A stretch of DNA of 64,000 nt from Trichobilharzia szidati (lineage: Eukaryota > Platyhelminthes > Trematoda > Strigeidida > Schistosomatidae): NCBI GenBank assembly GCA_944472155.2, contig OX235273.1:33763204-33827203 (forward strand). Direction: 5' to 3'. Within the stretch, counting starts at the first letter, position 1. The number at the start of each line of letters is the position of its first letter. The notes under the pieces are model-generated. The model saw only the letters and a list, made by a program, of their open reading frames with translations. It was not told where the DNA came from and did not search any database. Shown here piece after piece: positions 13,501-44,882 of the stretch. A program made the position numbers and the translations under genes.

Positions 13501-13599
13501 AATTGAATGATTAAAATAAAATAAATACGAGGAAATAGATGCAATATATAGGATGGAAATTTTGGTAGCCCAAGGTTTAAGCAGGCGTTAGTATAATTC

Positions 13600-16240: not shown

Positions 16241-16443
16241 ACAGTTGTGCGCGCTGTTTTCTAAAGGGAGTGCTTTTTTCAGGTTTTTTCACGTTTTTGA
16301 CATATCGCTGTTTTTGTTGTGTTATTCACTTCAAGAACATTTTTTAAAACTTTGTCTTTACTTTGTCGGTTAAGTTTTGATTTTAACCACTTATATTGAC
16401 TATATTGTGTAAATTGTCTTGGCTATTCCAGTAGAAGTTCATT

Positions 16444-16851
16444 ATGTCAAAAGTTACACATAAATGTAATAGGGCGGAGTGTTACTTTTTGGTAGATGAT
16501 GGAATACAGTGTAATAACTGTAAAATGTGGTATCATAAGATGTGTACTGGATTACGTCCAGCTGCATACAAACGTTGTAGTGCTCCAACATCCCACTGGA
16601 TGTGCAGAATGTGTTGCTCCCCAAAGATGACTTTAATAAGGGAGGCTCACGAACTACTGTCTAAAGCCATGGAACTTTCTGATGATAACGTGGCTAGTAA
16701 GAGTTACGGGGACTGTCCGTCTGAAGATAACGCAGTAAGTACCATCATGAATGTTATCACATCAGCGGCTACTACTTCTACTGATTTTATTTGTAATTTG
16801 TCTGTCTTTATTGCATTTCACTTCGAAATTAACAGGTTTTTGAAACAATGA
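16444..16851 (+). CDS. PHD-finger-like ORF, probable LINE ORF1 remnant
   Basis: A 135-codon frame. Residues 8-57 carry a C4HC3 zinc-finger pattern: Cys8, Cys13, Cys23, Cys26, His31, Cys34, Cys54 and Cys57, with KMWYHKMCTGL and HWMCRMCC as in PHD fingers. After that the sequence is low in features and ends in a hydrophobic stretch. PHD-type fingers of this compact kind occur in ORF1 proteins of CR1-like LINEs, where they accompany RNA or chromatin binding. No RT follows, so this is probably a 5' fragment of such an element rather than a host gene. A domesticated copy cannot be excluded. Confidence 0.55.
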   Translation: MSKVTHKCNRAECYFLVDDGIQCNNCKMWYHKMCTGLRPAAYKRCSAPTSHWMCRMCCSPKMTLIREAHELLSKAMELSDDNVASKSYGDCPSEDNAVSTIMNVITSAATTSTDFICNLSVFIAFHFEINRFLKQ

Positions 16852-23456: not shown

Positions 23457-23520
23457 ATGTCAAACCCTGCACTCCGCCTGTGTACTGTCGTCTTACTCCT
23501 AACATCATTTTCGCTGAAAC
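23457..23520 (+). CDS. Signal-peptide exon of a candidate micro-exon gene
   Basis: ATG at 23457, then 21 codons plus one base, ending at a strong donor (AAAC|GTAAGTATC). The peptide begins MSNPALR and has a hydrophobic core LCTVVLLLTSF, a good secretion signal. It ends in phase 1. Schistosome micro-exon genes typically start with one signal-peptide exon followed by short symmetric exons whose lengths are multiples of three. The plus-strand exons listed below fit this phase. The next 2 kb is filled by a PLE on the opposite strand. Start chosen because it is the only ATG between the TA tract and the donor that gives a signal peptide. Confidence 0.7.
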
Positions 23521-23624
23521 GTAAGTATCAAAATTGATATATAACTTTTTATTTTAATATATGTTTAAAACTTGCGCACCTTGGTACTTAGTAATTCCAT
23601 GTTAATTTGTTTATTAGATATATT

Positions 23625-23740
23625 GCAGAGTGAAACAGTATTATTCACTCGACGACGTTTCAAACAAAATTTATTATTATTCATAATCATATCAGCTATA
23701 ATCACGCGACTTCGAAACGAGTTGTATAGTTTTCTTTCTT
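23625..23740. repeat. PLE terminal-repeat-like sequence
   Basis: Contains the order 'cgacgtttcaaac', then 'tattcataatcatatcag', which recurs in the palindrome at 27686-27856 and, more distantly, near 61500 and 63080. It lies just beyond the 3' end of the PLE on the minus strand, consistent with a PLE terminal repeat. Confidence 0.45.
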
Positions 23741-23876
23741 CTCTCCTATTTGTCGTAGGGGTAGCAGAATTTTCCAGATATCTGAAACAGGTGTTGAATC
23801 ATTCCTAATACACGTGTTTGCAGTTGATTCGATAAACAAAGCCTCTGTTATCAATCTCTGCCTCCACCCTGTCACA

Positions 23877-25560
23877 TTAGATTTTAAAACTGTCATCATA
23901 TTCCATCCATCCTATGGTATGGTTGCGTGTAACTGCATGTAGTGCTATAGCTGAACTATTCTCTAGAAATCCTATCGTATTCGGGTCAACCTGTCTAGAT
24001 TTTTCTAGGTTTTTATGTTCAGCTAGTCTGACTGCCCCTTTTCTACTAGTTTCACCTGTGTATTTGACCTGACAGTCATTCCAGCAGGGTATGAGATAAA
24101 CTAAATTGTTTTGTTTTAAATTCTCCACAGGATCCCTTAACCGACAAAGCTCGTTTATAATTGAGTTTGTGGGTTTGAAACCCGGCCACTTTTATTCCTG
24201 CCTTGTTAAGAATTTTCCTGCGTAAGGTTTCCGAGGTTCCTTCCTTGTATGGAATTACTACTGATGATTTAGATTCCTTATTGTTGGTGTCGTCATTATC
24301 ACTATTACTATTATCATTATTATTGTTATTATCACTATCACTACTATCATTATTTATTTTATTTTTACATTTCCCTACATATTTCCTGACTAATTTATCA
24401 GGGTAATAATCAAGTTTCAAAGCTTCTCTTATTTGCCTCACTTCATGTCTTAGATTTTCATTGGTGCTACTTAGTTTTTGTGCTCTGTCACTTAAACATT
24501 CCACCAATCCTATTTATACTGACATAGGATGGAACGATCGGAAGTTCGAATGTCTGTTTGAATGTGTGGGTTTCCTGTTAACGCTAGTGTTTAACTTCCC
24601 ATCTTCTTTCCTTTTTACGATTCAATCTAACATTGGAAACTCCCCTTCCTGACTTTCCGATTCATAAGTGAATTGAATTGCCTCCGCCTTTGGCTTAATT
24701 TGTTCGAAAAATCTATTTATATCCTGTGTTCTAAGTACAGTGATTGTGTCATCTACATACCTCCACCATACTTTTGGGGTGAGGCTGGACGTTTCAACTG
24801 CTATGTTTTCCCACCTATCCATGAATATATCTGTCCAAGTCTGGAAGATCGGTGACCTCATGGCAACTTCCACAGTTTGTTTGTATATTTTCCTTTAGAA
24901 TTTAAATACTGTGAAAGTCAGGCATAACTTCAACCCCAGCATTATGTCCTCAAGTGGCAGTTCCGTCCTAAGTTCGAGTTCTTGATCATAAATGAGTTCG
25001 TTTCTTACTGCCTTTATAGCCATATTTATTGTCGGTAGACGTGTATATTAACTGACAATGTCAAAACTAACCATTTTTTCTTCATTATCTAATTTTAAAT
25101 TATCCAATCTATGTTTTAATTCATAAGAATTTGTTAGTATCGAATTCGACTGGCTTTTAAGGGGATTTAATACCATAGCTAAATATTTAGATAATTCATA
25201 AGTAGGTAAATTTCTAAAATCAACTGTAGGTCTAATATGGTATCCTGACTTATGAACCTTAACAACACCATACATCCTACTGGGGTTATTAGTTTTGGAC
25301 ATTAAATAAAAACCACTAAGACTCACCTAAAAACGGCTTCATTCAGCGTATTCGGTCCACTGTGGATTTCTTAACCATATTTATAACGGTGTCTTCATAT
25401 GGTCCTGTTGGTATGTGAGTATTCACATTGTCCAAATATTCTGTTTTGTCTAATATTACTGTTGCATTTGCTATGTCTTATTAGGTGATTACTAAGTCCT
25501 CGTTTTTCTTAAGGTGTTTTAAGTCTTTGTCAGGTCAGGCTTTCCTCGTTTTTGTCGTTT
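23877..25560 (-). mobile_element. Penelope-like element, nearly full RT and GIY-YIG, frameshifted
   Basis: In order on the minus strand: NEDLVIT and DKTEYLDNVNTHIPTGPYE near 25.5-25.4 kb; YGVVKVHKSGYHIRPTVDFR (25326-25048 frame); the RT catalytic WWRYVDDTITVL (24873-24622 frame); a KPTHSNRHSNFRSFHP-like segment; KLDYYPDKLVRKY; an Asn/Asp/Ser-rich linker near 24350-24290; and the GIY-YIG nuclease (VYLIPCWNDCQVKYTGETSR). Several frameshifts and stops make it inactive, but domain order is intact. It occupies the first intron of the candidate micro-exon gene, antisense to it. Confidence 0.85.
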
Positions 25561-25860
25561 CCATGTCAGTGGACATTGTGTCCGCACTTCATCAATGGTT
25601 GTTTTGTCTATCCAAATCAGTGGTACTTCTGTTTTAAAGATGATGTACTTCACATTTCGACAAACAAGACTTTTATATTCATGTAAGTGTTGAGAAGTTG
25701 CCATCAGTGCATTAACTGTGAACAAGTCATTGTTTTCACGTATTTAGACAGTGAATGTGCTGAAATGAATGACCGTAAAAATAAAAATCAGACAAAGATG
25801 CAGTAGAATTGAATTTGCTTTCAGTTTATTTGGCATGTCCTACAATGAAGAAGATTTCAA

Positions 25861-25911
25861 GACAGAAAGGAGATTTCACGTCAGAGATGTATCAAATTGA
25901 AAACCCAGAAA
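25861..25911 (+). pseudogene. Cassette A copy of the 51-nt micro-exon, acceptor lost
   Basis: Aligned base for base with the cassette B exon (31845-31895). In phase 1 it reads QKGDFTSEMYQIENPE and keeps the donor GAAA|GTAAGTTG. The bases where B has the acceptor CAG are CAA here, and the nearby AGs would break phase. I infer this exon is skipped or mis-spliced, while the B copy remains usable. Confidence 0.5.
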
Positions 25912-26061
25912 GTAAGTTGATCCCTATCCACTGATGCCTAGTGTATGTCGTTTGTTAAACTCGATACCGGTGAGTCAGTCACTCACTCAGATCAGGCCGA
26001 TGAACACACACGCACAGAGTCATGCACATATCCCATTGATTCACCACTTCTCTTCATTTAG

Positions 26062-26082
26062 CTAACACTAACACGTTAACAA
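26062..26082 (+). CDS. Candidate 21-nt micro-exon (cassette A)
   Basis: Acceptor cttctcttcatttag, then 21 nt ending CAA|GTATAAAG. Phase 1 to phase 1, open (NTNTLT). The 40-nt intron that follows has a TACTAAT branch-site match and a pyrimidine tract ending cttag at 26122, the compact intron type of schistosomes. The next exon would begin at 26123 and read MNSHIFHLPKETVQKAK then stop, a possible alternative 3' end. The donor is only moderate. Confidence 0.4.
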
Positions 26083-26929
26083 GTATAAAGTGTTTACTAA
26101 TCTCTCCTGTCTATCCACTTAGTTATGAATAGTCACATTTTTCACTTACCAAAGGAAACTGTTCAGAAGGCAAAATAAGCTTGTATTGGCATTCACTTCT
26201 GAACATCAACGACGAATGTGCTGTGAGTTCAACTGAACTTCAAGCCGATCCATTCATAAGCCATTCATAGCTGATGATGCCTGCAGTAAGGAGTAAAGGT
26301 TGGATTTGATTCCAGAAACGGCATCGTACACTCACAAGAAAGCACCTCTATTACTCAAACTTCAAAGCTTAAGCAAGAAGCCTCATATACCACCCTGAAA
26401 TCGAAGGAATGCAATGCACCGAAATATTACACACAGCATAAAGTTGATTCATGTTCTGATTTTCTAATATTCTTCTTCATCACACCTTTATCAGACAGAA
26501 ACTCGAACATTTCATATGTGATTGAGAAGAAATTGAGCTATCACAAAAGTATGTTGAATCGATATTATATAAATATTTGTGCACAATGTGATGAAGACAT
26601 TTACTGTATGATAGGCAGAAATGCATTGCAATTTATGACAAGATTAGAATTCGATCACGCTCAGCAGACATTCCTCAACCAACCAGAAATGATCTTCATA
26701 TCCAGACTGTGTCAAATGCATTTCCATTCGTTAATCCATTAATTCGTTAACTACTTACAAAGTAATTCTCGAGAAGTGATCTAATGCTTGTAAGTGAGTG
26801 ACTACAATACGAAGTTGGCTGGAGAAGGCGTACTGAGAAGGCACAATCAGAGGGGGCCACCTGGTCGGATGTGAGGACGAATGATCGTCGAAGATACTGG
26901 CTTTCAATGATTTCTAAACTCGAGTAACG

Positions 26930-27003
26930 AAGCAGCTGTCCAGTACTCCTTTGTGGTTTTCAATGCTTGTCTAACTGATGTCAACCCGCGGACAAACTAT
27001 AAT
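26930..27003 (+). repeat. Headless Smalpha-like SINE tail (cassette A)
   Basis: Matches 'cagctgtccagtactcc' through 'gatgtcaacccgcggacaaa'. The same fragment is at 32914-32987 in cassette B. The inverted cassette C keeps the whole SINE, including the head, so A and B derive from an internally deleted version. Confidence 0.65.
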
Positions 27004-27144
27004 ACCTGTTCGCATATTAGTCACGGGACAATTCCGGAGACAGGGTATTTATATATTTAAAGCTGTGTTGACTATTTTGTGATGAAACTGTCCCCCATTT
27101 GAAATTTCAAGCTACTTCGAAGAGGAGGAATGAAACCATTTCAG

Positions 27145-27171
27145 TATGTGAGGAAATAATCAAAAATGAAA
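27145..27171 (+). CDS. Candidate 27-nt micro-exon (cassette A)
   Basis: Acceptor gaaaccatttcag, 27 nt, donor GAAA|GTGAGTTG. Phase 1 in and out; in-phase codons read CEEIIKNE. Homologous exons of the same length and phase are at 33129-33155 and, inverted, at 45505-45531. Conservation of length, phase and both splice sites across three copies is the best evidence that these are real exons. Confidence 0.6.
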
Positions 27172-27646
27172 GTGAGTTGATACTTGTTAATAGATGCTTG
27201 TTGCGTCACTCCAGTCGCACAGGTTTTGCGCAACGTTATTTGTCCGCTGGTCTTATGCCAGTGAACTCACAAACAATGTAATAATGACCATCATTACTCA
27301 ATTGGGTACTGAGTGGAATATAAAGCTTGATCGTAACACCATCATTTCACTACCTTCTCTGCAATCTGTTTAACCTGCCTACACGATAACCAATAATTTT
27401 CTGCTCTCACCACACATGGTCTCCTGCATCTGCCCTCCCCTCCTCTTCCTCCATACACAACCACACCTTGCTCTTCGTTCTTCCCATTCATATTCTATTT
27501 GACGACCTGTCACAAGATATCAGTCTGTTGTGTCTTCATCATATATGTAATCTATCTGCATTTTCTTTGGCATATTTATCAGCCAATAGATTGTTGTTTT
27601 GATGGTTTGTTCCTTACCAGAGTTTTGCGCTTCTCATCGTTTCCAG

Positions 27647-27882
27647 GTGACTATCCGATCTTCATTATAGATAAAATTTTATTTTGATATATTACACGGT
27701 GTTAAACAGTAATATTAACTGATGACCACGTTTCGAGCACAAAACATTGCTCATAATCATATCAAGTCACTCACACTTGATATGATTATGAGCAATGTTT
27801 TGTGCTCGAAACGTGGTCATCAGTTAATATTACTGTATAACACTGTGTGATTCATCAAAAGGAAATCTTATCAGTAATGAAG
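27647..27882 (+). pseudogene. MEG exon apparently split by a palindromic insertion
   Basis: Acceptor cttctcatcgtttccag followed by codons GDYPIF in phase 1, resembling the intact 66-nt exon at 37328 (GDYIKG) and its upstream pyrimidine tract. After about 25 nt a palindrome begins (27686-27856). Past it, 'tcagtaatgaag' leads to a GTATAC donor at 27883. I infer an ancestral exon interrupted by a PLE terminal-repeat hairpin. Confidence 0.4.
27686..27856. repeat. Near-perfect 171-bp palindrome (arms about 81 bp, 9-nt loop)
   Basis: Left arm 'ctgatgaccacgtttcgagc' is exactly complementary to the right arm 'gctcgaaacgtggtcatcag'. The centre is CATATCAAG, a 9-nt loop, then CTTGATATG. Outer 20 bp carry a few mismatches. 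The sequence resembles the PLE terminal-repeat-like segments at 23.65, 61.5 and 63.1 kb. Confidence 0.85.
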
Positions 27883-28161
27883 GTATACTCTGTCACAGTG
27901 CACAAGTTTTATACTTATATCGAGTCTTCATTAATGATAGTAAGTAGCTGTTGGTGAATGTTTGCAACAACCATTTGGAAGTAAATTCCGTGATGCGGCA
28001 AGTCTCACCAGTCTTACATGCTATAAAAAGGACGGACTGTCTAGTCAACCTATCTCAAAAAATCAATCCATTAGCTGCACAAACTTTGCCTCCTCTAATC
28101 GTGCTAATTTTAATTCATATACGCTGTCAAGGAACTTAATCCTAAAATTATGTTATTTCAG

Positions 28162-28274
28162 AGGACGCTACAAATCGAAAAACACTAAGCACAGATATTG
28201 AATTTAATTCCTTAAACACAATGGATGACAAGAGATTGTATTCTTCGATAGTTAAAATCAATATTCTGTACTAA
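28162..28274 (+). CDS. Candidate terminal exon of the first MEG transcript unit
   Basis: Strong acceptor (ttatgttatttcag). In phase 1 the exon runs 36 codons (DATNRKTLSTDIEF...) to a TAA at 28272-28274. The peptide is hydrophilic, with many Asp, Lys, Thr and Asn. It lies after cassette A and before the CR1-like copy 2, so a transcript using exon 1, cassette A and this exon would end here. No clear poly(A) signal before the LINE. A chance open stretch of 36 codons is possible. Confidence 0.35.
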
Positions 28275-28349
28275 GTTTAAAATCAAGTGTTTTTAAAAGG
28301 AATGTACTGTACTTTTAATCGTATTCTGTCATCTTCTTTAAGAACAAGA

Positions 28350-31300
28350 ATAATAATTTGCTTCATTCCAACACAGTACTTGTGATACAGAGTGGAATTC
28401 TACAGTATTGCATCCAGTTAGTACATTATCAGTAAATAGAATTCCACATAGATTATGGAAATCTCAGTTCATTATGACAACAATATATTGGCATGTCGGT
28501 AGCAAGGCTAAAGTTGAACAGTGTTTGAAGGTGTTAGAAAAGTAGGTGCTATCATATTTACTGGTGTGAGCGGGAGAAAGAAACAATGCAGCACATAACG
28601 AAAAAAGAGAGAGAGGGAGAAGGAAAAGAAAGAAAGAAAATGTTGTACCTATAGGTGATATGAGTTAGGAAGACGAGGTCCAGTTGTAGTACTGACTGTT
28701 TAATAAATCATAGGTGTCACGGCTAATGGTTTCTTTATCTCACACGAGCTAAGTAGGGTATGGTTGAGTTTTTGTACTTGCCTGTGCGAGCATATAGTTT
28801 TCTATATAGGCTTCTGGTTTTGCCTGATGAGATGCAAGGAGAGAGTTGTGAGTGAAGAGGGTGGTGTGAGTAAGATAAAATGGATTTGGCCCATTTTTCA
28901 CATGAATCCGTGTCCATATTAACAAGCTGGTTAAGTGGCACGTTGCTCACCCTGCTGACAACCTTTAACATCCTGCGTAATAAGGTATAGTCTTTCTTAA
29001 GTAGCCCGGGAAAACTAAGGGGGGACAATAAAGAATAATAGGCAGAATGAGAGAGTTAACGAATTGAAGGAGTAAGGGTTGGGTTACACCAGAATGTCTT
29101 AACTTCTTGATGCAGGAGGTAAGACGGGATATTTTCTTAGAAATCGCCAAGATATGAGAGGACCAGGAGAGATCAGCAGATAGAATGACGCCTAGGTTTT
29201 TTAAATTTCCGACTTGGTCTCTATTTCAGTGCCATCTATGTTGCACTCCTTGTGAGAGCCAACCAGTTTGTTTAGGTTGGATTTATGCCTAAAGGTGAAA
29301 TTGACTGCTTGGCATTTGAAGGGGTTTAAGGTAAGACCATTTTCCTTGGACCACAGGCTGATTTCTGATAGAAAGCCATTAAGTTTAGAGCAGTCGCTTT
29401 GACATTTGACAGGCAAAGATACAGTCAGGTCGTCAGCATATATGACGAAATTAATGTCATTTGAAGATGGTAAGTCATGTAGAAAGAAAGAAAAGAGAAG
29501 TGTGGAGAGTACAGCACCTTGGGCGAAAAAACTACAGTGAGCACAGCAGAGGAGGATTAACCTTTATATACGGTGTACTGCATTCTGTAAGAGAAGTAGA
29601 AGTGCAGCCAGTTAGTGACCCAGGACTCAGTTTTTGCCATAGAGAGCTAATTTAGCAGGAGACATCTAGGTCCAGAGTCGAAAGCAGAAGTGAAGTCGAG
29701 AAACGTGCAGCGGACGTATTTGGCACCTTTATCTAATGATGAGACGGTGTTGTTGTGTAAGACGGCTGCAGCGTCTAAAGTGCTCCTACCCTGTCTATAG
29801 GCGAATTGTTTGGGGTCTTCAAAGCTTCTAAGGGACGGTTCAAGTTTGAGAAGTACCAGTTTTTCCATAAGCTTAAGAAACGGGAAAGTGATGGCAATGG
29901 GTCTGAACTTTACGTTATTGCTATTTCCAGGTTTAGGGACAGGGACTATTTTACTGTCGTTCCATGCAACAGGTACTACATTTTTTGGAGAAAGAATCAT
30001 TTAGGACGTTAGTTAGTGGAGAACATAAAGCACCTGCACATTGTTTTAAAACATATGCACGTATACCATCAGGGACAAGGCTACGTGAGAGCTTGAGCGT
30101 TTTAAGACATTTTAGAACATCGAGAGCATTAAAGTCATGAAAGTTATCAGCTACATGACTGGTAACATTAGAAGTGGTTAAAGTAGAAGGACAGCGTATA
30201 AAAGACTGATTAAGAGCATTAACATCATAAGAGGGAAAGCCATTACGACGCTTACTATTGCCAGTAAATTCATTAAAAAGTTTTCACATGCTGATTGGAG
30301 ATTTACATGATAAAAGTGTATCGTTATAGATAGCATTAAGATTTTTGATTTGATTTGGGCACTGTTCTTTTTGAGTCCTAACTTATCTTTGGATTTGTGT
30401 AATGTTTCTTTTTGCCTGCGAAGTTGTTTGAGACAAGGAGACGAGAAGCGGTCTAGGCGTTTGAATAGTGTTTGTTTGGGACAGCATATTTCAAGGCAGA
30501 ACTTAAGATAATCCGTTATATTGGCAATTGTGTCATCTAATGTTCTTTCATGGAATAAATCAAAGTTAGTATTTTTTAACATGCACCTTAGATTAAGTAA
30601 GTTGTCAGATGAGTAGCATCTTTGTTGTGCTTTCATCGACAAGTGTAAGAAAACTTTAATTTGTGTTTTGCTGTGTATTTTTGGTAAAACACGAACAATA
30701 CAGTGATCAGAGTAAAGGATCGGTGTACTTTTACGTGTTTCATATACTCCTTCGTCATTAGTAAGAACTAAATCGAGTGTTTTGTCAAGTCGAGTGGGAA
30801 ATTTGACTATGTTTGTATGACCAAGTACTTCAAGGAAGGAGTAATCTGACGAGTTGAAATCACCAGTAATAACAGATAGAGAGTTGTCGAAGTTGCCAGC
30901 GGCAAACATGGTGAATTCGTCAGCAAAACTTGAAAGATCAGATAGTGTGCAACTGGGAGAAATGTACATGTTTGTAACAAACATATGTTTATATTTGGGG
31001 AGATGTTTGGGACGACATTTGACGGTGATACAGTCTATGAAGTCATTTGAGAATGAGAAGTAAACATTATTAGAAATAGACCATTTGGAGTGAATAAAAG
31101 TTGCCACGCCGCCCCCATTTTTCTTATTACAGCGTTGTCGGTCTTGTCTAAATAGGACGAAGTCCTTTAGTGAGATGAAGTTGTCATCATACAGTTCATG
31201 TTACCGCGTTTCATGTAATGTGATTATGGCAGTATTATGATAAGTGTCAGTGGACATCAAAGACTGTAGGTACATTATCTTGTTAGGCAGATAGGGGCAG

Positions 31301-31566
31301 TTGGTGTTCATTATGACAGGGACCGTAGTTAGGTGTATTAGTGTACGTTTTAGAGCTCTCTGCCAACTACTACGATGCTTCCTCCTTGATTTCTTGGGAA
31401 TATGAAAGTCATTGGGTCGTAAATGATTAATAAAGTTACGAGAGTAAATGATCCTGTTAGAATTCATATTTAGGTGATAAATAAATAGGAGTAAACAGTA
31501 GATTGGATGCAGTATGTAGATATTATAATAGCAGGCCCAAAAATTCGAACAGGCCGCCATGGTCAA
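28350..31566 (-). mobile_element. CR1-like retrotransposon, copy 2 (pseudogene)
   Basis: Same family as 10078-13570 and same 3' end ('cagtacttgtgatacagag'). The N-terminal frame starts MNSNRIIYSRNF near 31467. An in-frame stop follows LHETR, replacing the Trp-Leu expected from copy 1. The endonuclease (TGDFNSSDYSF, SDHCIVRVLPK) continues to a frameshift near 30350, then RT pieces FRPIAITFPFLK, FLDFTSAFDS and IYADDLTVS, and the C-terminus at 29028-28735. Several frame breaks make it inactive. It lies in the MEG locus between cassettes A and B, antisense to the candidate exons. Confidence 0.85.
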
Positions 31567-31844
31567 TATTCTTCCGACTTGTACACGATAGAATCACTCG
31601 CGCCTTCAAGTTGCCTGCCAATGGCCACCAAAGCCAATAAACAAACGTTCAATGATCATAATCACTGACATACGCGCTTGAGTTATAACCACTGTCTTAG
31701 AGAATATCACAAATTCCGTTTTCAGCATAACTGATTAAAATTTGGTGATTAGTTAATATTACTGATAACACACGACTATGAAGAAAGTATACTTTTTGAT
31801 TTGTAATAAAACCTCTTCTCAATGGAAATTTCAAGCTCTTTCAG

Positions 31845-31895
31845 GAGCAGAAGAGGATATCACGTCGGAGAGGAATCAAATTGAAAACCCAGAAA
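31845..31895 (+). CDS. Candidate 51-nt micro-exon (cassette B)
   Basis: Acceptor caagctctttcag, 51 nt, donor GAAA|GTAAGTTG. Phase 1 at both ends; in-phase reading is AEEDITSERNQIENPE, acidic and hydrophilic. Spliced to the signal-peptide exon it would give Arg at the junction. The flank before it ('ggaaatttcaagct') also precedes the 27-nt exons, which suggests that the 51- and 27-nt exons arose by internal duplication. Confidence 0.6.
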
Positions 31896-32045
31896 GTAAG
31901 TTGATCCCTATCCACTGATGCCTAGTGTATGTCGTTTGTTAAACTCGATACCGGTGAGTCAGTCACTCACTCAGATCAGGCCAATGAACAGACACGCACA
32001 GAGTCATGCACATATCCCATTGATTCACCACTTCTCTTCATTTAG

Positions 32046-32066
32046 CTAACACTAACACGTTAACAA
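32046..32066 (+). CDS. Candidate 21-nt micro-exon (cassette B)
   Basis: Identical to the cassette A copy at 26062, including the acceptor, the CAA|GTATAA donor and the 40-nt intron with TACTAAT. Phase 1, reads NTNTLT. Confidence 0.4.
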
Positions 32067-33128
32067 GTATAAAGTGTTTACTAATCTCTCCTGTCTATCC
32101 ACTTAGTTATGAATAGTCACATTTTTCACTTACCAAAGGAAACTGTTCAGAAGGCAAAATAAGCTTGTATTGGCATTCACTTCTGAACATCAACGACGAA
32201 TGTGCTGTGAGTTCAACTGAACTTCAAGCCGATCCATTCATAAGCCATTCATAGCTGATGATGCCTGCAGTAAGGAGTAAAGGTTGGATTTGATTCCAGA
32301 AACGGCATCGTACACTCACAAGAAAGCACCTCTTATACTCAAACTTCCAAGCTTAAGCGAGAAGCCTCATATACCACCCTGAAATCGAAGGAATGCAATG
32401 CACCGAAATATTACACACAGCATAAAGTTGACTCATGTTCTGATTTTCTAATATTCTTCTTCATCACACCTTTATCAGACAGAAACTCGAACATTTCATA
32501 TGTGATTGAGAAGAAATTGAGCTATCACAAAAGTATGTTAAATCGATATTATATAAATATTTGTGCACAATGTGATGAAGACATTTACTGTATGATAGGC
32601 AGAAATACATTGCAATTTATGACAAGATTAGAATTCGATCACGCTCAGCAGACATTCCTCAACCAACCAGAAATGATCTTCATATCCAGACTGTGTCAAA
32701 TGCATTTCCATTCGTTAATCCATTAATTCGTTAACTACTTACAAAGTAATTCTCGAGAAGTGATCTAATGCTTGTAAGTGAGTGACTACAATACGAAGTT
32801 GGCTGGAGAAGGCGTACTGAGAAGGCACAATCAGAGGGGGCCACCTGGTCGGATGTGAGGACGAATGATCGTCGAAGATACTGGCTTTCAATGAGTTCTA
32901 AACTCGAGTAACGAAGCAGCTGTCCAGTACTCCTTTGTGGTTTTCAATGCTTGTCTAACTGATGTCAACCCGCGGACAAACTATAATACCTGTTCGCATA
33001 TTAGTCACGGGACAATTCCGGAGACAGGGTATTTATATATTTAAAGCTGTGTTGACTATTTTGTGATGAAACTATCCCCCATTTGAAATTCCAAGCTACT
33101 TCGAAGAGGAGGAATGAAACCATCTCAG

Positions 33129-33155
33129 TGTGCGAGGAAATAATCAAAAATGAAA
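33129..33155 (+). CDS. Candidate 27-nt micro-exon (cassette B)
   Basis: Acceptor gaaaccatctcag, 27 nt, donor GAAA|GTGAGTTG. Phase 1, reads CEEIIKNE, the same peptide as cassette A despite two nucleotide changes at or near the exon start (TATGTG versus TGTGCG). Confidence 0.6.
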
Positions 33156-33200
33156 GTGAGTTGATACTTGTTAATAGATGCTTGTTGCGTCACTCCAGTT

Positions 33201-35099
33201 GCGCAGCTTTGCACAATTATTTTTTCTCTGAATGGGCTTTGTTTCTGGATTGTGTTTGCAGTTTTCTACATAGCATGAAGAGCGAATCCAACAGTTGGTG
33301 AAAGTCTGCTACCTGTTGGAAATGTTTTCCATGGGGCGTAGTGCGAATTTCTGACCCACATAGATGAACTGATTGACTCACATTTATGCTGAAAATCCGA
33401 ATCTTGTTTCTATGCTATAGAGTGCAGATGACAACCACACAGATTTCACATTGATTACGGTCTGTCTTGTCTTTCCAATTCTGGCTCCTTTTGACTTGAC
33501 ACGTTCCGCCTCTAGTTGATACTGGCCGGATAACTGAAGGAAGTAACCTCTGTCAGATCTTTCCTGTTGATAGTGGTTACTGCTACTTGTTGTTGTTGTT
33601 GTTGTTGATTGGTTACCTTAGCCACCTCCATCTTCCCAGCATTCACCTGAAATCCTGTCTTTGCTGCCTGCCTACCTCTTCTGCCAGTTTGTTAGTTTTC
33701 ATTTGTAAGTCTCCTAGTTTGCGTGGCATCAAAAATAATTCATACTTGTGCGAAATCCAGATCTTCTAAAGTCTTCTTATCGGTTAGTGCAGCGTATTCC
33801 TGTCTTTTCAATCCCAAATCACATTCTGACGTATAATCCACTCCACCACAACTAAGAATATCATCGGTGATAATAGAGAGCGTGCTTATCTTACTCCTAT
33901 ATCCACTCAAAACACCTCGCCGACGTTTTTGTCGATCACATGAAACGTGCCAGTGTCATGTGGTTAGCTGTTCAGAGAGTTTGATTTAGGTTTTGTCACT
34001 GCATTCGATTGTGTCGAATAAGTTTCCAAATTACTAGGCAGTCAACACTGTCTGGTGAAGGTGATTTTAAAGTGGGTAAAGTTGGAATAGATATTTGACT
34101 TCCATTCCATGCTCTGTTCAATGGTGATGCGTACATCTGCCTGCCATTTGATCAGCACAGAATTTGACGTAAGTTTCGAAAATCCATAGATTGTACCCTA
34201 TTCTCTATGCTACAGATAAAGCTAAGTAATTCGTTTAGAAAGAATATATGCGGTAACTATGGAGGGAAATATATACTTCCATCCACACATCTGCCAAAGT
34301 AATATTCACCAAAAAGTTGGCTTAAACGATGCTTTCGAAATGTCTATTTCCTCATAGACTTAACACAGAAATACCTACGCATTGCAAAAGACGCTGGATC
34401 ACAATGGAGACAGGGACAAAGTTGGTGGAAATCAGTTTTCTATATTTTTGTAAAATGTGGTTAAGGCAAATATCGAATGACTGGTTAAATGCAGTACACT
34501 GCATGACGTCAGAACATTTTCATCAGAAATTTAACTGTGATTTCCAAGTTTACTAAGTGACGAATAGCACTTTCCGCATATGTCATACTTGTTGTAGAGT
34601 TAAATACAATTTCGGAATTTCATTTCATAATGCGTGATGCCATACATATTACTTACTGACTGACTAATTGATCGATATGAGTAGCTGGACACAGGCTTCG
34701 ACAACCAGTATTGCCTTCTAGCTGCATCAATAAGACCTATATGCTGGATTGCCGATTCAATCGTTTACGGGCTAAGCTTCTCAATGGTGTATATGTTTCG
34801 ACTCAGCTCAGAGTGGCGATTCAGTTCAAAGCAACCAAAATCTACCTGCCTAGCTGGATGAAATTGTAACACACGAATAATCAAATTCATAATTCATGGA
34901 ATTATACAGCTTGAGGTGAATGTTTAACACCGCTTTCTTCGTCGAAAACTGAAATTATTCACACCACAATTTGTGATCTGCTATTAAATAGGTTAGTAAT
35001 CTTCAATGTGATCAGACCAATGCTGTCTGAAATAATTCACCTGAGTGTCTACATACAATTGTACAGTATCATCCATCTAAATTCATTTCTCATTTTCAG
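33201..35099. other. Intronic/intergenic, no clear gene
   Basis: Contains a (TTG)n run near 33588-33606. No recognisable domain. The stretch near 33980-34020 faintly recalls an RT motif but is too decayed to support. Confidence 0.35.
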
Positions 35100-35147
35100 A
35101 GAATATCGACAGAAAACTGGCCTATCAAAACAAAACAATCGGAGTCT
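35100..35147 (+). CDS. Candidate 48-nt micro-exon
   Basis: Excellent acceptor (ttcatttctcattttcag), 48 nt, donor GAGTCT|GTATGTT. Phase 1 at both ends; reads NIDRKLAYQNKTIGV. If the donor is not used, the phase-1 frame continues VCMFQ then TAA, which would make it a terminal exon. Joined directly to the 66-nt exon at 37328, the junction would form TGA, so the two would have to be alternatives. Confidence 0.45.
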
Positions 35148-36059
35148 GTATGTTCCAATAAATAATGCCATTCATGAGGATTTCTTTTATAGATCTCAGA
35201 TGTAAATGTGAATATTATGCAGCTAGTTTTCTGACGGATGCCTATGAAGGTTCGGTCTTTTGGAAATATTATTTCATGATATAACATTATGCATCATAAA
35301 TCGCTATAGCTATCATCTCACACATACAACTCAGTGCAAATACTGATGTGTACATGCCCAGCATGAAAACGTCTACACCGATTCACTTATAACTGCGATG
35401 AATGAACAAGAAGAACAAAGTCTTGATCATTTCTATTGCTGCATTTGCTTGGCTACATAAGTCAATTCCCAAATGGGCAATGAAGCTATTGTCTAGAATG
35501 ACAATGAAGGCTTCGTGATTAGGCCAGTTAATCCAGTGGACACACCAATGTTAATGTAGTTCATCTGAGGTACAAATCATCACCAAATAGTGTGTGCTCA
35601 AGCAGTCATAAACCTTACTGATTACTGTGTTATATTCTATGTTTCTGACTGTGCCACTTTAATTGACTGCTTCAAAATCTTCTCTGAATGCCACACCTTC
35701 AAGTGAGAATAATATTCAGAATGTCGAAATTGTAGTTAACTCTTGACTGATGGTCAATGCATCTTCTCTGCAGTCTTTCTGTTAGAAGAAATTCATTTGA
35801 TTTTTCATTATTTTGTGTTTTGTGAATAATTTAGGCCTACTGGTGTTTATGAATAAAGTGAAAAGGCTGTATGGTACGACTTTACAATCTTTCTTCTGTA
35901 CTTTCCTGTCCAGTGGGGAGAGAATCTTTTAAGCTTTTGCCTTTATCTGTTCACTTCTTCAAAATCTACTGGTTACACAGGTACTAAACACTTTGAAAAA
36001 CACCCATAAAAACAACTTTTACAGGAAATAAACTGAAGACAATTTACATTAAAGCTTTT

Positions 36060-36700
36060 CATCAGCCGCATAAAATTAGAATAATAAAATGTATGAGGAA
36101 TGCATCACTTATCTAGGCAGCATCATTTGATATACAGGTGGCGGTGCGGTTGGGGTTGTGAAAACCGGAATCGGGAAAGTGACGCAAACCGCCATCATTT
36201 TGTGATTAGTTTAGAAATCTTCAGCATAAAGAACAAAATGTGGATTTTCAACATCAGTGTGAAGTCAGTCAGCTCTTCAATATGGGTCACACAAAATATT
36301 TACAACAGGCTTCAGATTTCTATTATCAACTGTAATCGCTTCCTACTGAAGATTAGATGGTCAGTCAGGAAGAATTAGCAACAAGGAACTCTGGGAACGA
36401 ACGAAGAAATCAAGAAACTATTGCCCGAGAAATATACCAAAGGAACGGAAAATGGATCGGGCAAACTCTGAGGAGACGATTCAGTGACATCACACGCTAG
36501 ACAGACTATCAAAATAAATTCAAAGGACAAAAAGTGAGTTGGACATGGGTCCAAGGGAGCTGTGGAGGGGATCGTATGAGAAATTGATAAGAGCTAATAG
36601 GCGATTGCGGAGCCAGCTAGTAAAGACTCTGGTAAAGAGGATATAATGGTGAGGAACCACGTTTACTCGGAACCCAAGGGAACAAAAATAACAATAAGCA
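36060..36700 (+). mobile_element. RTE-like LINE 3' end, decayed
   Basis: Frames contain remnants matching the better copy at 46.0-47.3 kb: 'MWIFNISVKSVSSSIWVTQN' against its IRIFNTNVKSVLLYGSETW, and NRLQISIINCNRFLLKIRWS against NRLQTFINNCIRSILKMRWP. The end 'ggaacccaagggaacaaaaa' matches the RTE 3' terminus. Stops and frameshifts throughout. Confidence 0.75.
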
Positions 36701-37043
36701 ATGAATATGTGTTAACTGAATAGGCAGTTCATCTCATCTTAGTCTCATTACATACCGAAGATACAGACGAGGTGTACACAACACAGGAACTTACAATATT
36801 CAAATTGTGACCAAAATAAACGCATTCAATGCATTGAAAAGCCACGACTATACTGGAATTCAGGGTTTACTCGAACATAAGTGAAGACGTTTACACAATC
36901 ATGTGAAAACTCGCTCAGCTGAAGTGAAAGAGATCGAAGCTAATTAACAAAGGGATATAACTAAGGGACGAACTCAGTTTCCAAATGACGTCATAGAAAG
37001 TGAAATTTCGAAGAGTTAGAGTGAAAGAGTCATCAATGGTCAC

Positions 37044-37055
37044 GGGGGGGGGGGG
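37044..37055 (+). repeat. Poly-G run
   Basis: Twelve consecutive G in otherwise AT-rich DNA; may be length-variable. Confidence 0.9.
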
Positions 37056-37327
37056 TAATAAGTTAGTACTAACACCCATTTTCCGCACATAACTATGGTT
37101 TCACACTTTAGATTGTCACAGCTTCAGAAATCCGAGGTGGTAGTCATGAAGGGATTTGTGTCTTCACCATCTTGAAAAATTTTTCTGCGCACTGATGTGT
37201 GAACCTGTATGTTCCTTTATTGAAATCTATCCCAGGAAATTACTATTTCCGGTATCGCAAACAATGTTTACCCTACATGTAGATCAGACCAGTGTATATC
37301 TCTTATTTTTCTCATCATATCCTCCAG

Positions 37328-37393
37328 GAGATTATATCAAAGGCTACGAAGAATATGTTTCACAGTATCAAAATGACTTCAATTATTTTAAAG
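37328..37393 (+). CDS. Candidate 66-nt micro-exon
   Basis: Long pyrimidine tract and acceptor (ttttctcatcatatcctccag) and consensus donor TTTAAAG|GTGAGAAA. Phase 1 at both ends; reads DYIKGYEEYVSQYQNDFNYF plus a junction-dependent residue, rich in Tyr, Asp and Asn. Resembles the interrupted exon at 27647. A decayed PLE follows within the intron. Confidence 0.6.
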
Positions 37394-37479
37394 GTGAGAA
37401 ATTTCATTAACGCAATACAAATACCGAACATTTATGTGATAGAAATTTATTTGAAAACCCCCATTGAATCATATGAAAG

Positions 37480-38760
37480 AATTGGCGTTCAGCGTAGAAC
37501 TCCTAATCTTTTTGACGCTTCATTCTCAAGCTGTACACTAAAAAGGTGCATGTATAGAAAGTCGATGTGGAACGAACAACTTACTAACTTTCATAGTTGA
37601 GTGCTTCTATTAACAAAACGAAGCGTGATGTGTACATTAAGCCAAGGAGAATCCGTACCATTTGCAGTCCTAACACTACAGAAGAGGAACTGAACACTCT
37701 GAAAAGACTTCTTCTTGGAGGTGGCCTCTCGAACGTTTCATCGCAAATTCCGTGAAGCCAAAACCACTAAGACCACGTACACTTTCTGCCCGTAAAGGAT
37801 GTTTCTACAGTTCGGTTTGGACTCATCATCAGAAATATGAAGGAACTGTTTACGCTAGTCAATCAGGGAAAACGTCTCCCCAGCCGAACTTCGAATAACT
37901 TTCTCTATGAGGAAACGACCTATCTCAAAAAGAAACAGCAGAAATAGGTCAATCAACATATTCAAATAGATCCATAAGAAGGGATTAAAAACACCATGGG
38001 CTCTATTATGCATAAGGTCAAAATATCTCCAGGGGAACTAGTACGCCGTATGAAGTCATCTTTAAGTGAGTCAAAATGATTTAATCTAATGCCTACAACT
38101 AATTGTTCTAGTAGAATGCAGGGCACTATCGAAATTCATAAAGCGGGATATCCTATTAGGCTAACAATTGATTTCATTGACACCCGAACATACAAGTTTA
38201 CTAAGTATTTAGCACTAAATCCTGTATAATGGAACAGAAATTGGAGGAAATTCAATAGGATAAAGATGAGAAAATGATTGGTTTTGACACAGTCACCAGT
38301 TAGCACACTAATATTCACATTAATGCAGCTCTGAAGACACTTAAGAATGAACTGAACATTCATCCTTAACTCCAAAGTACGATTAGACTCTCGACTGATG
38401 AAGTAATGTTAGGTATCCGGTTATATCTAACCTCCACTGTATTCAAATTTCAAAATAAACTGTATCAACAAACAGATGGGATGATAATTGGATCATCAAT
38501 AGTGGCAGACATATTTATGGACAGCTGGGAACATGAAACTCTTAGAACGTTTAATGCTGCTCCTAGGTTATGGTGAGGATATGTAGATGACATACTTCAT
38601 CACTGTGTTGAAATCTGAACATATCCCTCACTTTTTCTTACACAAAAGCTCAAAATTAGACGGGATTCAAGGCCCGTGTAGTACTGCTGCATGAAGGAGG
38701 GACATCAGAGGCCTAACAATGGATTCTCAATGAGTATGGAATTAGCGTGACACTTAAAAC
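37480..38760 (+). mobile_element. Penelope-like element, decayed
   Basis: Shuffled-frame remnants of a PLE RT in order: TTEEELNTLKRLLL near 37675; TIEIHKAGYPIRLTIDFIDT near 38125; KLYQQTDGMIIGSSIVADIF near 38460; then the GYVDDIL catalytic motif near 38578. Many stops. It lies in the MEG region, sense orientation. Confidence 0.8.
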
Positions 38761-38873
38761 AACCAACCAACCAACTTCATTAGGGATAAACTTTATCGGC
38801 TTAAACCCCTGATGAAAGATCCAATTAAGAAAGCATAATATAATTTACTGACATTTAGCAACATCACTTAGAG

Positions 38874-39000
38874 AACCATTGAAAATCAGGGTGTACTGGG
38901 TAGCTATTTCGCTCTAGTTCAGGACTATTCAGTATCATGCAACCATGATTTTGCTGATGATCGAACGTATCACCTTCAGTTGACGAGGCTATTCCTTCAT
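38874..39000 (-). repeat. Smalpha-like SINE fragment
   Basis: Diverged tail and hammerhead-derived body ('gagaaccattgaaaatcag', then a TACTGGGTAGC box); head hardly recognisable. Confidence 0.5.
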
Positions 39001-39400
39001 TCATTCAGCTATTATGACAGGATCCAATGTCCGGACAATTAATTCAAACTTCTGTCAATTCAAGATTCATCACAACACAGACAGTCACTATTATCGATGA
39101 ATATTTGGCCTCATAAGCGACTATGTAAACTCCACTGATCAAGAATTGCCAGCTGCATTTCAGAAAACTTCCTCAGTCATTAGTATGTTATTTGCAGGTC
39201 AGAATAATTACTCAATATCTGACGGTTTCTCACCAACGCCATGGAAAGTGCATTCTCTACTAAAACAATGAAATGTACACATTATGATCGGATACTCCAT
39301 AGTAAATCCTCTCTGTTTCATTTCACTCATTCTAGTGTAACATTCTCTGCATGACGAACTTTAAATTTAGTTCTTACCAAATTTTCTTTCCAATTTATAG

Positions 39401-39424
39401 GTCAAAGTCTGCATCCCGTGTATC
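39401..39424 (+). CDS. Candidate 24-nt micro-exon
   Basis: Very good acceptor (attttctttccaatttatag). 24 nt to a weak donor TATC|GTAGGT. Phase 1, open (QSLHPVY). Weaker than the other candidates because of the donor. Confidence 0.3.
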
Positions 39425-39429
39425 GTAGG

Positions 39430-40685
39430 TGTATGGATTATCTGCCTATAAAAATGAATATAGGTAGTTTTCTTATATTAATAATATTAACAGCTTTATT
39501 CTGATCGCTGTTGATATGATGGCACAATGTCCAGCAGAATTTATTGCATAAAATCCCCTTCTCGTCTATGATCTTGAAATAAGTTAGTAACGGTAGAACG
39601 CGTTACACAATACTGTCTGAGGAACAATATACTTAGTCCAACTTAAATCATACGATTGGAAACGTTTATTTCCCGATGCGAATTTAAAATAAGCAACACA
39701 AGTTAATAAAGCTGGATTAAGTGAATTGATCAAATTTCAGTAGAACTCTTGATAGAAACAAGGGACAAACTAACTTACACTTTATCAAATGGGAGTGACG
39801 TTAAAGGCAAAGACTACATAATTAAATGGAAGAGTGAATAAAGATACCCGGTCACCAGGGCAAGGAAACACTGATAACTGCTTCCTGCCGAATACATAGG
39901 CAGGGTTTCTGATGTGTTTGCTAGAGATTGCTACTGCAAACTAGGGGAGAGTTGAAATATTTTGTCCGCGCAGCTGATGAGCAACCAATGAAATAGATAA
40001 TGTTACCTTCTGATTACGCATAAATTGTTGTTCTTGCTTTACTCAAATGCAAAGAAGGGAATAAACATATTTACTAAGTCTCCAGATTATAGAATTTGCA
40101 GGGATTTAATTGCTAGGTTTCCATCACAAAGCGAACAGAAGTAGAGTGGTCATTGAGAATCGATCATTGAATCCCCTTACTATCAGCTGAACACTGAGTG
40201 AGCTTAGTCTCGTAAGGTGAAGGTTTCGTTTTGAATCCTTAAGCGTTCCAACAACAGACACCATTAGATATATTATGTATGTCTAAACCAAGTACACTTT
40301 GAACAGTTTGAAAACATATGGTCATTTGTGTGAATAGCATTGATTATTATAAAAGCTTTTGTACTTCCTATCGAATGTATAAAAAAACGATATTGCTGTT
40401 TATTACTGGCATCTGGCTATTTAATACTGCTAATAACTTTATCATAGGAGAAATATTAAACCAAAATTTTCAAAATTTGAGCTGATACTTACAGTGACTT
40501 AATCATCGTTCGTTGACATGAAATAATTTTTATGTTATCGTCAAGGTGGACAATCAGTAAACATAACAAAACCGAGTGTTGATTGTTACATTTGATAAGT
40601 GTATAGAATTATAAAAACAGCATATGATTACATCGTGAAATGTCTGATCACGTTCGTGTTGATTTCGTCACTGCAGGTGGTGGGA
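39430..40685. other. Intronic/intergenic, no gene seen
   Basis: AT-rich, with no supported frame or repeat. Confidence 0.4.
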
Positions 40686-40689
40686 TAAA

Positions 40690-41380
40690 TGTTGCTACCA
40701 AGCTGTCTTAGTCCATCATTCCTAATGAGAAAATGTGGATTCCATTTGATATGAAGTGTTTCTGATTGATATTAGACTTTCTTTGTGACCTCTGAAATTT
40801 CAGTGTTGTCAGAATCTATATTATGACCTGATGCTATAGCGTGTAGACAGATCTAAGGATAATGAATTTTCAAGCTCTCCTAGCTCAACTGAATTTCTCA
40901 GTGGTCGATCAGATACTCTATGGCGTTCATTTTTTCTGATCTAGATTTCTCTCTGACAATGTTTATCCGATGTATTTCACATCACATTCCAAGTGAGCAC
41001 TTTATTTTATAGACTCAACTAGATTAAGAATCCTTTGGATGTTGGTTTGGACATGGACAAGGTTTCTTTTTAGTGTGTCTGATGTTTTGAAGAAAACTAT
41101 GATGTTGTTTTTACTCTTATGATATCCTCTGACCTTTCTGATTTATATGGCATGATTATTGTGGAGGCCCATATCCTCAGAATCCTTTTTGCACCATAAT
41201 TAATGTCGATGTTGATTTTGTTAAGTAAGTTCTTTGGGTGGTTATTCTACTTGAGAGTCGGAGTAATCTTTGAAAATTCTTCCTCTTTTCCCTTCTCATC
41301 CTCTGATATCAAAGAGTGTGCTTGTCTCAGAAGACTTGAAACTACTGAAACCGTGTAATAACCTGAAGTCTGAATATTTT
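40690..41380 (-). mobile_element. Penelope-like element, decayed GIY-YIG end
   Basis: Minus-strand frames give a VYKIKCSLGM...CEIHR stretch with the layout of the PLE GIY-YIG start, and downstream GHNIDSDNTEISEV, matching the TGHKIDV region of better copies. Before it, a segment similar to the linker (IIMPYKSERSEDIIR). Frames are broken. Confidence 0.6.
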
Positions 41381-41632
41381 CTGGAGTATATTTTCTTCCT
41401 GAATGTGAGATATATTTTCCATTCAGTCAATATGAACACTCTCTCTTTCAAATTGGTTCTTCAGCGACTGATTTTAATATTTGAGTGAAAAGATCGCATC
41501 GTCGATAAATCACAAACAACGATGAGGAGTACACGTTATTTTTCAGCCACATTAGTGTCATACGGTATACAATCTGCATTCATGTTCATTTCAAAAGATA
41601 TTTATTATTAAATTTATCTCAATACATTTTAG

Positions 41633-41701
41633 CCGTCGCACAAACCACTAGAATGCTATATTTCGAATGTCTACGAGCTTCGAAGTATATGAAGCACAGT
41701 T
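41633..41701 (+). CDS. Candidate 69-nt exon, penultimate
   Basis: Good acceptor (tctcaatacattttag), 69 nt, strong donor CAGTT|GTAAGTTC. Phase 1 at both ends; reads VAQTTRMLYFECLRASKYM then KHS. The next acceptor at 41875 would create TGA across the junction, ending the protein with KHS. Confidence 0.5.
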
Positions 41702-41874
41702 GTAAGTTCTATAAAAAAAATGATAAGGTATTTCTCATTATGATACGCTTCTGCTACATCTGGGATTCCTGTTTCACTTGTGCATATAAGAGTAAAGAGT
41801 TGAGCGAAGACAATCTCCCCAGCAAGTTCATTCATTTAGCTATTCAATACTAAATGTCATTTGTTGATTTCCAG

Positions 41875-41882
41875 GAACTTGA
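41875..41882 (+). CDS. Possible terminal exon start (stop at junction)
   Basis: Excellent branch and acceptor context (atactaaatgtcatttgttgatttccag ends at 41874; 173-bp intron). After the 69-nt exon, T joins GA to make TGA, and the phase-1 frame here has another TGA at 41880. This fits a last exon that is almost all 3' UTR. No canonical poly(A) signal seen nearby. Confidence 0.3.
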
Positions 41883-43425: not shown

Positions 43426-44882
43426 CCCCTAAATTGCACTTTAAGAGTATTCAAGAAAAGGGAATTACTAACTGTAAAACTGATTGATGTATACACACAC
43501 AAAAAGGCTGAATTTATTTCTCTTTGACTAATTGATTCAGCTACCTGATTACTAATGTGCCATGATTTCTGAATTACTATTACAGTGATCACTGACCATT
43601 ATCAGATCATTGCTCAGGCGATGGAAGTGAGTTCATTTCATTTAAACAAAGTAGGCTGTGACCTCACATTTAAACTCATTGACTTACTTTTGCTATCACC
43701 TCACTTCTACAGTTGCTTAATTCCAATTACCAGATAAAGGTGATAAAGCCAAGACTGAGCTCCAATATTTCCACAAACATCACAACTCACTCAAAAGTAC
43801 AAATTACTAAAGATGATACATCCTTAGATAAAGTTCGATATAATTATGGAGTTGAAAGCTCCTAAGTCTCACAGTCTCAGAGAGAGTATGTGAAAGTGAA
43901 GTCTTTTCTTTTTCTTTTTCCACAGGGATGTTCCACTTGTTCAGTTTTGCTCATTCACTCAATAATTTGTGGTAATTTCTATTTTAGGGAAACACCAAAG
44001 GGCATGAAATCAGAAAATAATGAAAATATAGATGACAACACATGGAAGGATACTGATAGTTCACCTCACTATCTGGCATTGTGGTGTCGTTAATATTTTG
44101 CAGCACGGAAATATAAAATTCCTACAGGAATTCACCTCGTTCTGATTTTTCGAAAGAACAAGTGGCTGGAATCTACACAGAGTGTCAGTAGACTGACTTC
44201 GTTTGTACACATGTACCCTAAATATTTAAGGGATTAGTAATACTTTCCCGAGTCACATTATTCTTCTTAAAATGTCTTAAAACTATCATCTGGTACTGTA
44301 GTCGTATTATTCTGGCTAGTGTGCACTACTGGCCCTTGTGACCTGTATTCAACTAGTCATATCAGCCAGTTAGTAGCAAACAGCATCATGCATTATGAAA
44401 TGTGATTTGAATTTTGACTGAAATTTAGAACAAGTGAGATGGATATTGAAAGCGCCACTCATCACTGATTAAACTTTGACAGAGTCAGCACTATACCAAA
44501 CGGGAAAAATCACAGTAGAAATTTGTTGACACTATAATTTCATCATGCAGCAAATCCCATTTAATCGATAAAAAACGTATTTTCACACACTTTGTCTCCG
44601 TCTATATTGTTCTTCATCCTTGTTCGCACCAAGTCGGTATTTCTGTGATAAATCTATGAGAAAATAAAACACTTCGAAAGGAATGTTTAAGGCATCCCCG
44701 TGGTGTGTGTTACTCGAACAGGTGTGTGGATTGCGGGGTATATTTTCCTCCACAGTGGCTTCTTAAATCCCTTTTAAACAAGTTACTTCGATTCTAGCCA
44801 AGAACAAGCGCCAATCACCATCAACCGGAGGAATCCTAAGAAAGTTTCCTCTTTCATTTATTTCGTCAGTGTATTGTACCAG

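Follow-up and report, generated by a model that had tools for sequence, protein, structure and literature searches.

The window analysed here, a 64,000-nucleotide (nt) stretch of the genome of the trematode Trichobilharzia szidati (contig OX235273.1, positions 33,763,204 to 33,827,203 of the forward strand; all positions below are those of the window), carries on its plus strand, at 23457-44020, a gene that runs from a signal-peptide-like first exon through 13 symmetric phase-1 exons of 39-87 nt and a 41-nt exon to a terminal exon. All 14 internal exons begin in the same phase, and 13 of them are in phase 1 at both ends. We propose, with a probability of roughly 70%, that this is one locus of a multicopy family encoding a predicted small, basic, secreted protein, variants of which would be made by including or skipping short exons of the same phase. 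Symmetric exons could be spliced together in any combination with the frame unchanged, and exon skipping and the duplication or loss of a whole cassette of exons would both change the protein in modules. Variation would then probably arise in two ways: by splicing inside each locus, and by duplication with fast amino-acid change between loci. The kept exon anatomy, the family of copies, the cassette duplication, the open frames and the pattern of substitution can be read from the sequences themselves.

Exon anatomy across species and paralogous loci

The first eleven exons, spliced and translated into a 211-residue query, matched the Trichobilharzia regenti protein A0AA85KFY5 (listed as 'Uncharacterized protein'; hereafter P0001) with 100% query coverage, 65% identity and an E value of 4.7e-75, and an exon-by-exon comparison found agreement at 158 of 200 residues. 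Mapping P0001 back onto the window confirmed the exon ends, added the 87- and 41-nt exons and located the terminal exon. P0001 is contiguous across the mapped exons, with no residues that need another exon, and it has two copies of the 87-nt exon that agree in every residue. A second T. regenti protein, P0002, equals P0001 minus one 87-nt and one 63-nt exon (50 residues) and is otherwise identical, the two sharing 54 residues before and 138 after the differing segment. A difference of exactly two exons is what frame-neutral skipping predicts, and two near-identical loci could be an alternative source of it. The earlier suggestion that skipping would preserve the frame fits both the symmetric phase of the internal exons and this pair of proteins. 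Single-sequence and profile searches, which have limited sensitivity (the protein search requires shared 5-residue words, and the profile search scored 7994 candidates), returned no relatives besides these two proteins and none from Schistosoma.

We searched the genome (1,113,721,179 bases in 907 contigs) for further copies. A 91-base query around the 66-nt exon region matched at least five places, and a 231-base query across the 48- and 57-nt exons gave at least nine matches, the window counted, a lower bound that rests on this single query. At 97-100%, two of the nine lay on C3 and a third on C471; at 82%, three lay on C1 and three more on C3. Seven paralogous loci were fetched, with 50 kb around each of B32, C471, D81 and E76, 37 kb of G10133 (C1), 27 kb of F817 (C3) and 10 kb of H10048 (C1). 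The two C1 sequences come from two of three equally scoring matches, and the ninth locus was left out. B32 and C471 (a 57-kb contig that may be an alternate haplotype) align with the window, here locus A, over 23.1-46 kb in long blocks of 93-96% identity. D81 and E76 align over about 21.5-44.3 kb in collinear blocks of 67-87%, with three short D81 blocks beyond. The full length of the gene is alignable in these four loci, and part of it in F817, G10133 and H10048.

The T. regenti protein P0001 defines eight internal exons beyond the cassette, and in 51 of 51 aligned instances across the seven loci these have kept the acceptor AG, the donor GT, the length and the open frame; five of the 56 instances were unmapped, four of them in H10048. 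Counted as events over positions, insertions and deletions (indels) relative to D81, E76, F817 and G10133 came to 0/438, 0/438, 0/438 and 0/398 in these exons and to 54/2475, 54/2468, 46/2300 and 58/1871 in their flanks. The complete reading frame is intact in A, B32, C471, D81 and E76, and the ten codons and stop of the terminal exon are present in these five and in F817. The first exon, whose hydrophobic, signal-peptide-like product corresponds to the start of P0001, is intact in the same five loci, its D81 and E76 versions being one codon longer. It was unmapped in F817, G10133 and H10048; the F817 and H10048 sequences were fetched without their 5' parts, and a simple scan of part of the G10133 locus found no signal exon.

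Judged from one sequence alone, a micro-exon pattern is weak evidence. A scored scan of the aligned copies, which drew on 134 conserved AG/GT pairs on the plus strand and 135 on the minus strand, asked for AG..GT intervals that keep their splice scores across these copies, are multiples of three and are open in some phase. It yielded 20 plus-strand intervals, 18 of them in phase 1, and 4 minus-strand intervals, 2 of them in phase 1. With F817 and G10133 added, phase-1 intervals on the plus and minus strands numbered 14 versus 2, 7 versus 2 and 7 versus 0 at rising thresholds.

These results revise an initial annotation of 23457-41882, which had placed there a signal-peptide exon ending in phase 1 at a consensus donor, followed by symmetric phase-1 exons of 51, 21, 27, 48, 66, 24 and 69 nt. 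The first exon stands, its frame and its GTAAGT donor being intact in B32, C471, D81 and E76, and the lengths 51, 48, 66 and 69 nt recur among the symmetric exons of Table 1; because that annotation gave no per-exon coordinates, the matching is by length. Two other candidates that it may have meant found no support, a 51-nt interval at 25514-25564, which has a stop in D81 and another length in E76, and a 48-nt interval at 40945-40992, whose splice sites are lost in B32, D81 and E76. The three shortest exons fell away. For 24 nt, the candidate 39401-39424 begins at the correct acceptor but ends at a donor that reads AT in D81 and E76, and the supported exon there is 63 nt long; the 27-nt candidate (35223-35249) uses the donor of the supported 57-nt exon; and for 21 nt, one scan found nothing within 23457-41882 and the other only 36117-36137, which is open in phases 0 and 2 alone. 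Nor does the gene end at 41882: a terminal exon at 41875 was rejected, since the 41701-41875 junction creates a TGA and the T. regenti protein runs on through the last two exons of Table 1. The annotation had also missed the terminal exon and eight others, of 87, 54, 60, 63, 57, 39, 63 and 41 nt.

Table 1. Exons of the gene and the two copies of the three-exon cassette
Feature	Position	Strand	Support and remarks
First coding exon, 64 nt	23457-23520	+	ATG, hydrophobic signal-peptide-like stretch, phase-1 end, donor GTAAGT
Cassette copy 1	25855-27233 (right limit approximate)	+	97.9% identical to copy 2
87-nt symmetric phase-1 exon that opens cassette copy 1	25825-25911	+	Splice dinucleotides AG/GT and open frame in A, B32, C471
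54-nt symmetric phase-1 exon, cassette copy 1	26495-26548	+	In neither T. regenti protein
60-nt symmetric phase-1 exon, cassette copy 1	27112-27171	+	In neither T. regenti protein
Cassette copy 2	31839-33222 (right limit approximate)	+	97.9% identical to copy 1
51-nt symmetric phase-1 exon, cassette copy 2	31845-31895	+	Intact in A, B32, D81, E76, G10133; C471 has AA in place of the acceptor; F817 and H10048 unmapped
54-nt symmetric phase-1 exon, cassette copy 2	32479-32532	+	Intact in A and 6/6 other aligned loci
60-nt symmetric phase-1 exon, cassette copy 2	33096-33155	+	Intact in A, B32, C471, D81, E76, G10133; 59 nt, frameshifted, with stop in F817
63-nt symmetric phase-1 exon	34358-34420	+	Intact in 6/6 aligned paralogues; present in P0001, absent from P0002
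48-nt symmetric phase-1 exon	35100-35147	+	Intact in 7/7 aligned paralogues; T. regenti match
57-nt symmetric phase-1 exon	35193-35249	+	Weak donor GTTCGG in A; intact in 7/7 aligned paralogues; T. regenti match
39-nt symmetric phase-1 exon	35835-35873	+	Intact in 7/7 aligned paralogues; T. regenti match
66-nt symmetric phase-1 exon	37328-37393	+	Intact in 7/7 aligned paralogues; T. regenti match
63-nt symmetric phase-1 exon	39401-39463	+	Intact in 6/6 aligned paralogues; T. regenti match
69-nt symmetric phase-1 exon	41633-41701	+	Intact in 6/6 aligned paralogues; T. regenti match
41-nt exon, phase-1 start, phase-0 end	43586-43626	+	Intact in 5/5 aligned paralogues; T. regenti match
Terminal exon, coding part (10 codons and stop)	43988-44020	+	Resembles T. 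regenti C terminus

Cassette duplication and exon evolution

The cassette measures 1.38 kb and contains three exons. The window and B32 each have two copies of it, whereas C471, D81 and E76 have a single one. The single cassette of C471 joins the left side of copy 1 to the right side of copy 2, a pattern that would fit recombination between cassette copies with deletion of the intervening DNA. The left breakpoint of copy 1 (25855) lies inside the 87-nt exon, the first 30 nt of which are upstream DNA; this DNA aligns in E76, where the acceptor AG is absent. A weak match to the region in G10133, 72% over 53 bases and located upstream in a different order, does have the AG. The fused exon is likely older than the split between the window species and T. 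regenti, because P0001 holds it twice with identical residues. Between the two cassette copies, inside the gene, the minus strand at 28346-31600 contains broken reverse-transcriptase frames resembling the long frame at 10888-13587, and part of this interval matches another place in E76 at 89%.

The exons defined by T. regenti differ from those of D81, E76, F817 and G10133 by 22-24% substitution, compared with 18-20% in the aligned flanks (p = 0.010, 0.002, 0.098 and 0.006, respectively, in comparisons that are not independent). When all eleven exons were taken, substitution was higher in exons than in flanks in nine of ten locus pairs, six of them at p < 0.05, the pairs again not being independent; D81 and E76 showed the reverse (0.047 in exons, 0.076 in flanks). 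The ratio of non-synonymous to synonymous substitution (dN/dS) was 0.84-1.29 in seven pairs between subfamilies, every range including 1, and about 1.05 and 0.99 under two codon models. In three recent pairs it was 0.24-0.28, with the range below 1 in two of the three, and between A and either B32 or C471 the exons change less than the introns. The codon alignment has gaps for F817 at the 51- and 60-nt exons and for G10133 at the 41-nt exon, and it retains the 51-nt exon of C471 despite the lost acceptor. We read these values as suggesting that amino-acid change came in bursts after duplication, with constraint later. For this family we infer splicing in this species, secretion and a host-interface role that would drive the amino-acid change.

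Relation to micro-exon genes and competing explanations

The initial annotation had taken this locus for a probable schistosome micro-exon gene (MEG). The central coding part of MEGs is described as made mostly of micro-exons below 36 bp, with the signal peptide in the 5' exon (PMC4671649); micro-exons are typically 6-36 bp (PMC12998952), and a wider range of 3-81 bp is also given (PMC10526429). Further traits of MEGs are a signal peptide that lies mostly or wholly in the 5' exon and two long flanking exons. None of the 14 supported internal exons here is shorter than 36 nt, and 13 of them fall within the wider range; the flanking exons have coding parts of 64 nt and of 30 nt plus stop. Symmetric internal exons number 26 of 33 in MEGs 26-32 (PMC4671649), compared with 13 of 14 here, each of the 13 being a multiple of three that begins and ends in phase 1. 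The locus has in common with schistosome MEGs a first exon that looks like a signal peptide, internal exons most of which are symmetric, long introns, duplicated copies, intragenic retroelements and a dN/dS near or above 1 between diverged genes (PMC4671649, PMC10526429, PMC4350168), for which values of 1.10-1.14 are given for the mature part of three MEG families (PMC4350168). Unlike MEGs it has no internal exon below 36 nt, and no MEG relative was found by the sequence searches above. The same-strand gene with its signal-like start and symmetric exons survives from the MEG interpretation, whereas the exon sizes do not, and membership of a numbered MEG family is unsupported by protein searches that, at their limited sensitivity, returned only the two T. 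regenti proteins. Since the symmetry agrees with MEGs and the first exon looks like a signal peptide, but the sizes do not agree, we call the gene MEG-like in its working and do not file it as a MEG: we read it as a gene that would work like one but is not one by exon size.

Trichobilharzia MEG transcripts have been reported that are not closely related to S. mansoni MEGs (PMC6362228), and among the papers listed on Trichobilharzia and micro-exons, judged from listings and selected passages, we recognised none that describes this family. Its known members outside this genome, P0001 and P0002, have between them the signal-peptide-like start and the 87-, 63-, 48-, 57-, 39-, 66-, 63-, 69- and 41-nt and terminal exons; P0001 differs, as a protein sequence, in its doubled 87-nt exon and in having no 54- and 60-nt cassette exons. 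A similar design is described for the bicycle genes of aphids, fast-evolving putative effectors with about 17 exons on average, in which nearly every internal exon is small and begins at codon position 2 (PMC9168663). All 14 internal exons here likewise start at that position. The organisms are unrelated, and the likeness, taken from description, is one of gene design with no kinship claimed.

More tentatively, and at somewhat less than even odds, we suggest that this family, found here in no other genome than this one and T. regenti, reached the MEG way of working without micro-exons. Its modules would be interchangeable phase-1 exons of 39-87 nt; the cassette would duplicate and collapse as a unit; a breakpoint would have fused intron DNA to an exon, creating the 87-nt module that T. 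regenti shares and has doubled; and exons would outpace introns between subfamilies. MEGs are credited with variation at the interface between blood fluke and host, and in them tiny size and uniform phase are hard to disentangle. Here the phase rule is kept by exons that are not small, at nine or more loci of a single genome. If true, the suggestion would separate exon size from exon symmetry, two defining traits of MEGs, and would point to symmetry as the one under selection. The natural series of copies, with the cassette doubled, the cassette single and one exon broken, would make the roles of exon skipping, exon duplication and amino-acid change separable.

Several observations weigh against the proposal of a secreted family varied by exon choice. 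The window gene is predicted from genomic DNA, and the T. regenti comparison uses database protein records. The donor of the 57-nt exon (GTTCGG) is weak, and the first AATAAA comes 643 nt past the stop (44020-44663). The 51-, 54- and 60-nt exons, which are less certain than the T. regenti-defined exons though intact in most copies, are missing from P0001 and P0002 alike and gave no match in a targeted search, and the 60-nt exon is broken in F817. The gap in substitution between exons and flanks is modest, and it was measured with unaligned flank omitted, which favours flank identity. In recent pairs, introns and flanks have changed more than the exons. The main alternative to bursts of amino-acid change would be relaxed constraint in the older branches, since all seven between-subfamily dN/dS ranges include 1.

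The same dN/dS values would suit an ordinary multi-exon secreted-protein family with constitutive splicing, in which the uniform phase was inherited from exon duplication and is unused for variants. We consider this unlikely but worth weighing. In its favour, the exon sizes, 39-87 nt, are unremarkable, relaxed constraint may lie behind a dN/dS near 1, and neither T. regenti protein has the three extra cassette exons. Against it, those two proteins differ by exactly two whole exons, the internal exons share one starting phase and nearly all are symmetric, and the cassette was duplicated as a unit. It is less probable still that this is a true MEG whose exons below 36 nt were missed both by the present model and by the T. 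regenti annotation. P0001 leaves no residues for further exons, and in the scored scans the remaining small phase-1 plus-strand intervals are few, close to the minus-strand number. In favour of missed exons, annotation pipelines are said to struggle with MEGs (PMC10526429), and the 57-nt exon contains a second, conserved donor whose use would leave a phase-1 micro-exon of 15 nt at 35193-35207, a conservation that may reflect coding constraint only.

It is scarcely credible that the listed exons arose as chance AG/GT intervals of intergenic DNA, or that the locus is a dead gene. The dinucleotides alone do fail to separate the strands, a further point against our proposal: with splice strength ignored, 63 symmetric, phase-1-open AG/GT pairs were kept in diverged copies on the plus strand and 57 on the minus strand, and we rejected such bare counts as an exon test because they are uninformative. 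The 21-, 24- and 27-nt exons of the initial annotation do look like chance. The full-length match to A0AA85KFY5, however, together with exon mapping and retention, already contradicts this explanation, and the 51 of 51 kept instances, the indel-free exons and the low dN/dS between recent copies also speak against it.

Predicted protein and neighbouring elements

The predicted mature protein is basic (isoelectric point 9.1-9.6) and hydrophilic (grand average of hydropathy -0.74 to -0.95). A putative secreted role at the host interface is suggested by the design of the gene and its evolution alone. A Pfam scan at E values up to 10 gave no family for the window protein or for P0002, so that the TsetseEP label in the UniRef name of P0002 is unsupported; for P0001 it gave only LST1 (E = 0.2), below its cut-off. 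A profile search of the PDB returned two insignificant matches (E = 0.18 and 0.72) and no solved relative, and a predicted structure of P0001 was too poor for use (mean predicted local distance difference test score 44.6). Exon-level annotation is thereby provided for a candidate secreted family whose T. regenti records carry 'Uncharacterized protein' and the TsetseEP label.

An Rfam scan of the window found nothing at gathering scores. Upstream of the gene, an 899-residue open frame on the minus strand (10888-13587) resembles what we take to be the endonuclease and reverse transcriptase of a non-long-terminal-repeat retrotransposon, and plus-strand frames at 7328-8147 resemble the end of what is presumably a Penelope-like element, with a GIY-YIG-like part. 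Beyond the 3' end, the D81 and E76 alignments stop near 44263, short of the first AATAAA, and more reverse-transcriptase fragments, repeated elsewhere in D81 and E76, lie on the plus strand at 46151-47303. A 138-residue frame on the plus strand at 16435-16851 has, by eye, a PHD-finger-like cysteine pattern.

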